From a bacterium (GTDB lineage: Bacteria > Patescibacteriota > Minisyncoccia > 2-02-FULL-40-12 > IGHO2-12-FULL-4), in the NCBI GenBank assembly GCA_030647955.1, contig JAUSIQ010000026.1:1-37887 (forward strand): a stretch of 37,887 nt of DNA, in the 5' to 3' direction. Below are positions 13,796-19,159 of the stretch, one piece after another (positions within the stretch are counted from its first letter, which is position 1; every line of letters starts with the position of its first letter). The notes under the pieces are model-generated. The model was not told the origin of the DNA. It ran no database searches and saw only the letters and a list, made by a program, of their open reading frames with translations. The translations under genes and the position numbers were made by a program.

Positions 13796-15910
<2,115 letters not shown>

Positions 15911-16021: not shown

Positions 16022-17164
16022 TTAACGCACTTGCGCGTTAAATTGCTTGATAGTTTCTTCGGTTATTTTGCTTTGGATTGGATCAATCTCTTCCGTCTTT
16101 AGAGTACGCTCGTTACTGCGATAAATAATCCGATACATATAACTTAATTTATCCGCACCAAATTTCTCCGCGTTTTCGTATTTATCCATAAGCTTAACTT
16201 CCTCCACCAAATCCCCGCCCAAATCCCGAATTAAATCGAAATAGTTGTTCGGCACAAAGTCTTTGTTCACCAGAAAAGAAATATCACGCGTAATGGGCGG
16301 AAACTTGGAAACTTCTTTAAATTTATTGCCCAATACCAACTGCCTTTTAACCCGCTCGTCCTCGGACCACAGCAAGCGAATATCGGGCAAGTCCATACTA
16401 ACAATCGCCAGTCGTTCCAAGCCAAAGCCAAAGGCCCATCCGGTGTAGTTTTTAGAATCAACTCCTAATTTATCTAAGACGCTATCCTTAACTACCCCAC
16501 AACCCACTACCTCCACCCATTTGCCCCCGATCTCCACTTCCATTTCTAGTGAAGGATCGGTATAGGGAAAAGTATCAGGGTTCAGACGATATTTAATATC
16601 CGGACCGAACACTGCTTTGGCAATGTTACTAAGCGCCTCTTCCAAATCATTTTGTCCGATGGTTTTAACTGCCTTGGGTACCAGATACCAGCCATCGATT
16701 TGATGAAAGACATTCATGTGCTTACGATCGATCTCGTCTTTGCGATAAACCTTCCCAAAGCTAAAAGCACCGACCGGCTCGTTCTGCGCAATGCTGTTTT
16801 TTACGCCTTCATCATTTAAGTAGTAGTACCACATCACTGTAGTGTGGGTGCGTAAAATGTTTTCATCATCAATGTAGTAGGTGTCGGATTTACTTCGCGC
16901 GGGATGATTGGCAGGAAAATCGAACAAATCAAAACTCACTTTGGCCGGTACAATCTCGGGAGTTTGAATCACATCCAAGTCTTTAAAATACGGACTGGAT
17001 AAAATCCTTTGCACAATTTCCGCAATCGGACTACCTGGCTTGCGCGACAAATCGGGCATATCCAAAAACCGCTTCATACGCAAGCTTTCCGGATCGGTTT
17101 TCGATTCGAGAGTTTTTCTTAATTTCTCTGCTTCGGGAGATTGAATGGTAATATTATTAATCAT
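16022..17164 (-). CDS. pheS: Single-chain phenylalanyl-tRNA synthetase (PheS core fused to FDX-ACB domain)
   Basis: Charges tRNA-Phe. 380 residues from the ATG at 17164. The class II core is clear: FDFPANHPARSKSDTYY, ILRTHTTVMW (motif 2), GKVYRKDEIDRKHMNVFHQIDG and GWAFGFGLERLAI (motif 3). The last ~95 residues, from FPPITRDISFLV to the end, match the ferredoxin-fold anticodon-binding (FDX-ACB) domain. In bacteria that domain normally sits at the C-terminus of PheT. The N-terminal tRNA-binding coiled coil of ordinary PheS is missing, so the layout matches mitochondrial monomeric PheRS. No pheT is in the window. The start follows an extended -10 box and avoids a 30-residue low-quality extension. 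Confidence 0.93.
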   Translation of the reverse strand: MINNITIQSPEAEKLRKTLESKTDPESLRMKRFLDMPDLSRKPGSPIAEIVQRILSSPYFKDLDVIQTPEIVPAKVSFDLFDFPANHPARSKSDTYYIDDENILRTHTTVMWYYYLNDEGVKNSIAQNEPVGAFSFGKVYRKDEIDRKHMNVFHQIDGWYLVPKAVKTIGQNDLEEALSNIAKAVFGPDIKYRLNPDTFPYTDPSLEMEVEIGGKWVEVVGCGVVKDSVLDKLGVDSKNYTGWAFGFGLERLAIVSMDLPDIRLLWSEDERVKRQLVLGNKFKEVSKFPPITRDISFLVNKDFVPNNYFDLIRDLGGDLVEEVKLMDKYENAEKFGADKLSYMYRIIYRSNERTLKTEEIDPIQSKITEETIKQFNAQVR

Positions 17165-17197: not shown

Positions 17198-17227
17198 ACA
17201 AAAAAAGGCCTCGCTCCCCGCGAAGCC
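17198..17227 (-). terminator. Terminator of the secreted wall-binding protein gene
   Basis: Minus strand GGCTTCGC-GGGGA-GCGAGGCC-like stem (one G-T pair) followed by seven T, about 110 nt after the stop of the upstream gene. Confidence 0.8.
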
Positions 17228-17338
17228 CCCACAAATGATTTCAGATGAAGACACCTATGGAAGTGATCAGAAGCTATTGAACTTTATTCGTGGCGCACTG
17301 GACAGGACGGCTTTTGAGCAATGGATCGATCGGGTAGG

Positions 17339-19159
17339 TTAATTGGATATCAACGCTTTCAACGCTTGGCGAGTGATTTCGCCAAAGTAGCCGGATATTG
17401 GTTTAACACCATACTTCTCCTGAAGTTTTTTTACGGCTTCGCGAGTAATGTTACCGAAATAACCGGTAATCAAATTGACTGGATAACTTACCTCGTTTAC
17501 CAAAAGAGCCTGGAGTTGTTTCACATCAAGGCCGCTTGAACCTATGGTTAAGTTTCGTGAGATAGTAGCAAGATTACTGGATCTGCCATTTGTTCCAGAG
17601 AACGTATGTACAAACGTCACTGGACTTGACTGCTCCGACACATTCCCCGCCGCGTCATAGGCGGCGACGGTATAGCTGAATGGCGTCGAAGAACCAAAAA
17701 GGAAGCCGTCCTCGGCGGGAATACAACACACCGATTTCAAATACATGCCGTTGCGATATATGTTGTACCCTACAACGCCTATGTCGTCTGTTGATGCCGT
17801 CCAGGAAAGGAAATTTCGGTTGTCTTGAGGCCAAACTGTAAGGCCGGTCGGTTTTGAGGGCGGAATGGTATCAGAACCACTACCCATCGCCAGGGTTGTA
17901 GTCATTATGTTTGAATCGGGACCACAATCATAGGGCGCCGCGTAAGAACCAGGAGGACTGGAGCAAGCGCTCACTTTATAAGAATATGTTCCCGCTCCTA
18001 TATTAAGGTCATAAACATTATTGGGTTGGCCGATATCTATAAGCATCCAGTCCCCGTCGCCAAACTTTCGCCATGTTTTTTTATAATTGAGGTTACTTGC
18101 CGTCGTGTTCCATTTTATTTCTATGGACGATATCAAGCGACTACTAGGAGCTATGGGAGAATAGGGCGTGACAGAGGTAATGGTTACAGTTAGTGGCGCG
18201 AGTGGAGTCGGAGTTGGGGTCGAAGTGGGAGTTGGTGTGGAGGTCGGTGTAGATGTAGGCGTTGGTGTGGGAGTAGGGGTAGAAGTCGTTGTCGGTGTTG
18301 ATGTATTAGAAGTAGGGGTGGGGGTCGGCGAATATGACAGAGAAGCAGTGGGTGATGGTGAGGTAGAAACCACTGGCGTCGGTGTTGGAGAATAAGAAGT
18401 CGAGGCCGTCGGGCTTGGAGAAACACTAACTAGAGGCGTTGGTGTGGGAGAAACCACTGCTACTGGACATATTCCCAATGTATCGCCATGATCCAAATGT
18501 GCCTTCAGGGCAGACACGCCAACATTAATAGTTGTAAAAGCAGTAAGATTCCCCGGTGGATAATGACAAATGACGGCTTGGCCAACATCCTTAAACTCTG
18601 CTTTGGTTTCTAATTTTTCTTTGGTCGAAACTTCGTCTACTTCTGGTATGCGGTCGTATTTGGGCACCTCTTTCACAGAATTAAACGAAACTACGGCTTT
18701 GGGATACCAATCAAATTCTTTCTTGTTGATACAAAAAACTTTTTTGAAAAAATTGGGGTCGTCTTTGACAGCCTGTTCTCCGGAAGTATTTACCCAATGA
18801 ATCCGGCCATTATCTTCCCCGCCAACTTCTATGCCATAGACCTTCTTGTCGTTGTCTTCACAGTTTCTAAACAGACCGGAGGTGGGAAAAGAATCACGAA
18901 CTTCGGTAGTGACCAATTTAACATTAGCAAAACCGCCTAAATGGCTGTAAAACTTGAAAATATCCGGATTTAAGAAAAGACGCTTGAAACCCTGATCATT
19001 CACAATGTAGACATCAGGGTCAGAGGAGAAGATGGCGCTGATGAGATCCCCCTCTTTGAGGCCGAAGGTGGAGGGGAAGGCGGCATTAGAGAATCTCGAA
19101 CTGATAACGATGCCCGCGGAGATTAAAACAAAAACCATCAAAAGTGATGTTCGCTTCAT
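17339..19159 (-). CDS. Secreted modular surface protein with peptidoglycan-binding domain
   Basis: 606 residues. Signal peptide at residues 1-27 (hydrophobic core, ending SNAAF). Residues ~33-105 form an N-terminal domain (LKEGDLISAIF, VYIVNDQGFKRLFLNPD) of a type I associate with surface proteins of Parcubacteria. Around 198-232 is a Cys-bounded motif, ICHYPPGN then AHLDHGDTLGIC, known from many secreted bacterial proteins. Residues ~235-320 are a Pro/Thr/Ser linker of SPTPTP repeats. Two Ig/fibronectin-like domains follow (the second with PPSKPTGLTV and YNIYRNG). The C-terminus, from LTIGSSGLDVKQLQALL to the end, is a PG_binding_1 domain carrying GYFG twice. Likely anchored to the wall; ligand unknown. 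Monocistronic, with its own terminator. Confidence 0.85.
   Translation of the reverse strand: MKRTSLLMVFVLISAGIVISSRFSNAAFPSTFGLKEGDLISAIFSSDPDVYIVNDQGFKRLFLNPDIFKFYSHLGGFANVKLVTTEVRDSFPTSGLFRNCEDNDKKVYGIEVGGEDNGRIHWVNTSGEQAVKDDPNFFKKVFCINKKEFDWYPKAVVSFNSVKEVPKYDRIPEVDEVSTKEKLETKAEFKDVGQAVICHYPPGNLTAFTTINVGVSALKAHLDHGDTLGICPVAVVSPTPTPLVSVSPSPTASTSYSPTPTPVVSTSPSPTASLSYSPTPTPTSNTSTPTTTSTPTPTPTPTSTPTSTPTPTSTPTPTPLAPLTVTITSVTPYSPIAPSSRLISSIEIKWNTTASNLNYKKTWRKFGDGDWMLIDIGQPNNVYDLNIGAGTYSYKVSACSSPPGSYAAPYDCGPDSNIMTTTLAMGSGSDTIPPSKPTGLTVWPQDNRNFLSWTASTDDIGVVGYNIYRNGMYLKSVCCIPAEDGFLFGSSTPFSYTVAAYDAAGNVSEQSSPVTFVHTFSGTNGRSSNLATISRNLTIGSSGLDVKQLQALLVNEVSYPVNLITGYFGNITREAVKKLQEKYGVKPISGYFGEITRQALKALISN

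Follow-up and report, generated by a model that had tools for sequence, protein, structure and literature searches.

A single-chain, mitochondrial-type phenylalanyl-tRNA synthetase is very probably the only PheRS of a Patescibacterium

Domain organization of the synthetase gene

The DNA analysed here (the window) comprises 37,887 nucleotides of contig JAUSIQ010000026.1 of a Patescibacterial genome assembly (GCA_030647955.1). It carries a gene for a protein of 380 aa, the features of which are collected in Table 1. The initial annotation had read this gene as a PheS catalytic core followed directly by an FDX-ACB anticodon-binding domain, in a chain of about 380 residues from which the N-terminal coiled coil of PheS is missing. 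The coordinates proved exact, and the coding strand is the minus strand. A longer GTG-started frame extends to 17254, but the ATG at 17164 was taken as the start because the relatives (374-390 aa) begin at the same place. In Pfam searches the protein matched tRNA-synt_2d (PF01409) with an E-value of 6.2e-56 (190 bits; cut-off 19.8) and, at its C-terminus, FDX-ACB (PF03147) with an E-value of 1.9e-22 (79.9 bits; cut-off 31.1), the two being separated by about ten residues. Both matches are far above chance level and bear out the reading as a one-chain enzyme. As had been claimed, the coiled coil of PheS is absent, since just about 45 residues precede the core.

Table 1. Features of the synthetase locus and of related loci
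Feature	Position	Strand	Remarks
Single-chain PheS-FDX-ACB phenylalanyl-tRNA synthetase (CDS)	16022..17164	minus	380 aa; ATG at 17164, stop ends at 16022
N-terminal ~45 residues	17030..17164	minus	Modelled as two short helices; PheS coiled coil absent (model secondary structure and alignment)
Class II PheRS catalytic core, PF01409	16340..17026	minus	Pfam match
FDX-ACB anticodon-binding domain, PF03147	16025..16309	minus	Fused directly to the core; Pfam match
Motif 2 region	16700..16756	minus	GKVYRKDEIDRKHMNVFHQ; pattern common to FARS2 (GDVYRRDQIDSQHYPIFHQ)
Phe-pocket loop F-P-Y	16562..16570	minus	Replaces F-P-F of PheS and FARS2
Motif 3	16412..16441	minus	GWAFGFGLER; contains the pocket Ala
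gyrB	13796..15907	minus	Directly downstream of the synthetase gene
Terminator-like hairpin with T run	17204..17230	minus	In the intergenic region preceding the synthetase gene
B2/YtpR-like genes upstream of the single-chain gene	L048:1784-2212; L045:4100-4510; L051:4111-4518; others		Related loci

In the alignment the window protein retained an intact Phe pocket and motifs 1-3. Motif 3 has the pocket Ala that restricts para-substituted Phe. The FPY form of the pocket loop, a signature of the clade, was present in 78 of 80 related loci.

Neighbouring genes and upstream sequence

The arrangement with gyrB downstream on the same strand recurred in 39 of the 70 related loci that had enough flank, and in another 12 of these 70 gyrB was found upstream on the opposite strand. 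Upstream of the synthetase gene no T-box or other known leader gave an Rfam match above the gathering score. The terminator-like hairpin could represent the end of the transcript of the upstream gene; three such sites were found where 2.2 are expected by chance. Two further observations were made on neighbouring genes. In Yanofskybacteria and relatives gyrB frames of about 1,105-1,160 aa occur (L122:5326-8808; also L091, L118, L127, L132, L148 and L155), and in L122, the sole frame checked, GyrB is interrupted at the Toprim domain by an intein splicing domain (PF14890). In the window, positions 17339-19159 of the minus strand encode a protein of 606 aa that looks secreted, contains a long SPTPTP linker and ends in a peptidoglycan-binding domain (PF01471).

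Relationship to known PheRS families

Compared with the PDB by sequence, the window protein scored 206 bits with human mitochondrial FARS2 and 131 bits with the best PheS; by family profile these values were 255 and 155 bits. An AlphaFold2 model of the protein (pLDDT 92, pTM 0.87) was compared with the PDB by Foldseek, and ranks 1-7 were all occupied by human FARS2. The TM-score was 0.78 to the apo structure 3cmq and 0.58 to the tRNA-bound open structure 3tup, with 31% identity in the structural alignment.

FARS2/PheRS-M (TIGR00469; PDB 3cmq, 5mgh, 3tup) resembles the window enzyme in its single chain of two domains, the position of the junction, the catalytic motifs and the lack of an editing domain, and ranks first in the sequence and fold comparisons alike. 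Differences are the FPY loop, which is FPF in FARS2, and the junction, which is about five residues shorter in the window enzyme. The heterotetrameric PheS/PheT (TIGR00468/TIGR00472) has a homologous catalytic core in PheS and a homologous C-terminal FDX-ACB in PheT (B8); the window enzyme, in contrast, is encoded by one gene and has no coiled coil, no B1-B7 and no editing site. The layout is that of organelle PheRS, as originally proposed: a PheS core with a C-terminal FDX-ACB and no other domain of PheT.

The curated family models gave intermediate scores. With TIGR00469 (pheS_mito) the window protein reached 245.9 bits, under the cut-off of 258.35 (two relatives, 238 and 219 bits), and with TIGR00468 (bacterial PheS alpha) 165 bits, under the cut-off of 237.45. 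Because the former score lies just under the curated cut-off, the protein is placed on a sister-like bacterial branch and not as a formal member of TIGR00469. The gene is filed here as a new bacterial variant of single-chain PheRS, predicted to work in a PheRS-M-like manner and scoring below the TIGR00469 cut-off.

The highest raw NCBIfam score, 249.4 bits, was obtained with NF051887, the model for SrmL (PheS-related mystery ligase), under its cut-off of 300. SrmL shares the PheS-like core and FDX-ACB in one chain. This score and the common layout would fit a PheS-derived ligase of another function, as SrmL is, with Phe being charged by something else. However, three true SrmL proteins scored 423-524 bits with the same model. 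SrmL has altered Phe-pocket motifs, lacking HPAR and the FP(F/Y)T.PS loop (it has H-P-Y-T and no PS), whereas the single-chain enzymes keep both motifs. Moreover, no other PheRS was present in their genomes. SrmL, in this study, turned up on a phage of 635 kb and two plasmids and not as a sole PheRS. Score and pocket residues rule out that the window protein is SrmL itself, and a different function of this kind is considered extremely improbable.

The following mode of action is proposed for the window enzyme; its catalytic activity, monomeric state, tRNA mode and error rate are inferred. The class II core would take ATP and phenylalanine to form Phe-AMP. The FDX-ACB domain, hinged straight onto the core, would recognize the GAA anticodon and, as in FARS2, would swing on its hinge to grip it, and the acceptor end of the tRNA would enter the active site of the very chain whose FDX-ACB holds its anticodon. 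The (alpha-beta)2 scaffold, the coiled coil and the B3/B4 editing site would all be dispensed with. As there is no editing site, the synthetic pocket would be the only barrier to tyrosine, unless tyrosine is tolerated. Unlike FARS2, a single-chain enzyme in a bacterium would have to serve all of that bacterium's protein synthesis.

PheRS content of the genome

Domain searches of the genome to which the window belongs (943 kb, 42 contigs, 97.8% complete) revealed a single FDX-ACB and a single strong PheS core. The B3/B4 editing domain (PF03483) gave no match in this genome even at E<=1, whereas all 14 control genomes matched. A search of the genome with the pheT profile yielded three matches, none of which was a pheT. 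The first was the FDX tail of the single-chain gene itself. The second, on contig C32, was a complete free-standing ORF of 108 aa of the MetRS-beta tRNA-binding type and no pheT fragment; the third, on C21, was weak (13.6 bits) and fell in an unrelated short frame, at a site with no pheT-like ORF. One other PF01409 match exceeded the cut-off, an ORF of 437 aa that on inspection looks like HisRS; the remaining ones were weak and under the cut-off. The absence of pheT, on which the initial annotation had made its interpretation depend, was thus confirmed for this genome, as was that of the editing domain, and neither a complete pheT nor a separate canonical pheS was present.

A pheT might nevertheless have been lost in assembly gaps, in which case the window protein would be a normal alpha subunit carrying one more domain at its C-terminus. 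This would agree with the fragmentation and the completeness of the assembly, from which genes for tRNA-Phe and tRNA-Val are likewise missing. Against it stands G371, a genome of the same order that consists of one contig of 615,149 bp. Its whole sequence was analysed, and matches to local PheS and PheT models were confined to its single-chain PheRS of 408 aa and one weak tRNA-binding ORF. In addition, 30 genomes were first picked by ORF length. The single-chain form was present in 26 of these (one copy runs into a contig end and another is divided by a frame change), and none of the 26 had a canonical pheT, nor a second pheS scoring above the cut-off; in the other four the PheT genes were small or split. 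Within the order all eight genomes examined had the single-chain form with one FDX-ACB each, and the core is, by the family-profile scores given above, nearer to FARS2 than to PheS. Loss of pheT in assembly gaps is ruled out by the single-contig genome together with the 26 others, and that the protein is an ordinary alpha subunit is highly improbable. The gene very probably encodes the organism's only PheRS; this protein, one chain of about 43 kDa, would most likely work like human mitochondrial FARS2.

tRNA-Phe

In the single-contig genome G371 ARAGORN detected a tRNA-Phe(GAA) with A73 and CCA. In the assembly of the window, pattern matches did not resemble tRNA-Phe, and a covariance search found 40 tRNAs, none for Phe or Val. 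For tRNA-Phe a gap is likely because tRNA-Val is missing too; either both genes fall in assembly gaps or they are interrupted or unusual. Bacterial tRNA-Phe usually has A at position 37. G37 was seen in all 21 genomes with a single-chain PheRS and a pattern match (including G371:C1:369236-369310), and in Patescibacteria with canonical PheST eight tRNA-Phe had G37 and six A37 (Fisher p 0.002, kinship not corrected for). Two A37 matches were excluded from this count, that of G318, which has both PheRS forms, and a second match in G388.

Distribution in Patescibacteria

Of 286 Patescibacterial genomes, about 26 carried FDX-ACB on an ORF of roughly 380-410 aa. In the own class of the window genome, of which 148 genomes were sampled, about 37 carried FDX-ACB on ORFs of 377-431 aa, as counted by this ORF length and the FDX span of 285 nt that is typical of the single-chain form; most other genomes of the class had a PheT of 610-860 aa. 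The trait is patchy, since families contain both the single-chain and the canonical form. A scan of genome contigs returned at least 338 loci with relatives of the single-chain gene, and the best 80 of these 338 were labelled Doudna-, Yanofsky-, Nomura-, Zambryski-, Giovannoni-, Brenner-, Colwell-, Harrison-, Lipton- and Vogelbacteria or were unclassified. Single-chain PheRS is a widespread and recurrent enzyme of Patescibacteria and not the property of one odd genome.

In Doudnabacteria and allies a separate gene for a protein of 117-184 aa lies directly upstream of the single-chain gene (in 10 of the 78 evaluable loci of the scan). The protein resembles the tRNA-binding domain B2 of PheT (TIGR00472 positions about 40-152, 90-118 bits) and is close to YtpR (NF045760). 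Possibly it represents a PheT remnant that acts in trans. No stand-alone gene of this kind was found in the genome of the window or in the single-contig genome G371. A survey reported that many Patescibacterial PheT lack B2 and that B2 occurs fused to other synthetases (PMC5370408).

Some unusual arrangements were noted besides. Genome G318 has both a single-chain-like frame of 387 aa and a PheT frame of 668 aa, and is either a mixed bin or a case of replacement under way. Two genomes of the own class (L064:2234-4209 and L065:2836-4751) encode a further minimal PheRS, in which the alpha subunit (235-246 aa) has no coiled coil and the beta subunit (392-421 aa) no B3/B4 region. In genome G127 (L066:2409-4519) pheT is divided between two neighbouring frames of the same contig, one of about 380 aa and one of 264-355 aa; this is a frameshift or a real split.

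Phylogeny and origin

Three trees were calculated with IQ-TREE (LG+C20), one of the core domain, one of the FDX-ACB domain and one of both domains joined with PheS and PheT, without an outgroup root. They contain one eukaryotic sequence, human FARS2, which was taken from printed alignments and lacks residues 169-198; FARS2 and SrmL form long branches. In the core tree the single-chain enzymes, FARS2 and SrmL were split from all PheS including the Patescibacterial ones (support 97/99), in the FDX tree from all PheT including the Patescibacterial ones (96/91), and in the joined tree likewise from all PheS/PheT (97/97). The AU test rejected a grouping of the single-chain enzymes with Patescibacterial PheS (p 0.0005) and of FARS2 with alphaproteobacterial PheS (p 0.005). 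The comparison suggested at the outset therefore places the window enzyme with FARS2 and not with bacterial PheS. Judging by these trees, the term 'mitochondrial-type' appears to apply to more than the layout, as each of the two domains falls together with FARS2 and SrmL. FARS2 as the nearest relative of the single-chain enzymes was not significant: a group of the two alone received 93/49 in the joined tree, and the alternative core tree did not differ (p 0.41), with FARS2 as the one eukaryotic sequence.

Core and FDX-ACB are joined at the identical place in the single-chain enzymes, FARS2 and SrmL. On the simplest reading, one fusion would have been ancestral to all three. The single-chain enzyme could instead have arisen independently of FARS2, from a Patescibacterial PheS core and the last domain of PheT, its likeness to FARS2 being convergence after loss of the beta subunit. 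The branches are long, the same interface constraints are gone in both enzymes, and loss of the alpha-beta interface could draw separately fused enzymes together in trees. Furthermore, the FDX tree puts PheT domains of the own class beside the fused group (96/91), and the small alpha and beta subunits of relatives can be seen as stepwise shrinking. Yet the core tree rejects a grouping with Patescibacterial PheS, and the same split was obtained from each domain separately, with the same junction. An independent fusion is accordingly regarded as unlikely, though worth keeping in mind. Patescibacteria could also have acquired the gene from a eukaryote, as mitochondrial PheRS-M, instead of the reverse or a common bacterial source. 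FARS2 nests near some of the single-chain enzymes in the FDX tree, weakly (85/62), and the patchy distribution would fit transfer; but many Patescibacterial families have the gene, its order relative to gyrB being conserved, and the bacterial SrmL lies inside the same fused group. A eukaryotic donor seems distinctly improbable.

The reading with a common bacterial source is put forward tentatively. A fused PheRS without editing might have been present in bacteria beforehand and have given rise to FARS2, which would then not be a bacterial tetramer trimmed in eukaryotes. That fused enzyme might survive as the sole PheRS of Patescibacteria, where it would serve the whole proteome without Tyr proofreading and with an FPY pocket, and SrmL might be a repurposed offshoot of it on plasmids and a huge phage.

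A 2010 review (Klipcan et al.) distinguished three forms of PheRS, of which the monomer was mitochondrial only and the sole known monomeric example of class II, and described the tetramer as conserved across all known prokaryotic and cytoplasmic species (PMC3275996). AARS Online, a 2024 database, treats PheRS-M as an organellar form and names it accordingly (PMC11580382). In a study of Patescibacterial protein families the only remark is that PheS clusters with PheT (PMC6744442), and a study of domain translocation noted movement of FDX-ACB between bacteria and eukaryotes (PMC8409312). In the open-licence literature searched no description of a bacterial single-chain PheRS was found. A lineage of bacteria dependent on a one-chain PheRS without editing would be an exception to the rule that the monomer occurs only in mitochondria, and would offer a natural test of the tolerance of a whole proteome for Tyr-for-Phe errors. 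It would likewise make a bacterial relative available for tracing the origin of FARS2, and would account for the absence of pheT from otherwise complete Patescibacterial genomes.

PheRS-related genes on plasmids and phages

The single-chain form was not found in viral contigs. The phage-borne SrmL is encoded at L164:4986-6065 (LR745206.1, an uncultured phage of 635 kb) and scored 423 bits with the SrmL model (cut-off 300); two plasmids, one of Glutamicibacter (L161) and one of Azotobacter (L162), likewise carry SrmL genes. Ruminococcus phage NatCom_28775 (PV036440.1) carries a pheS-pheT pair at L165:3105-6538, annotated as hypothetical proteins.
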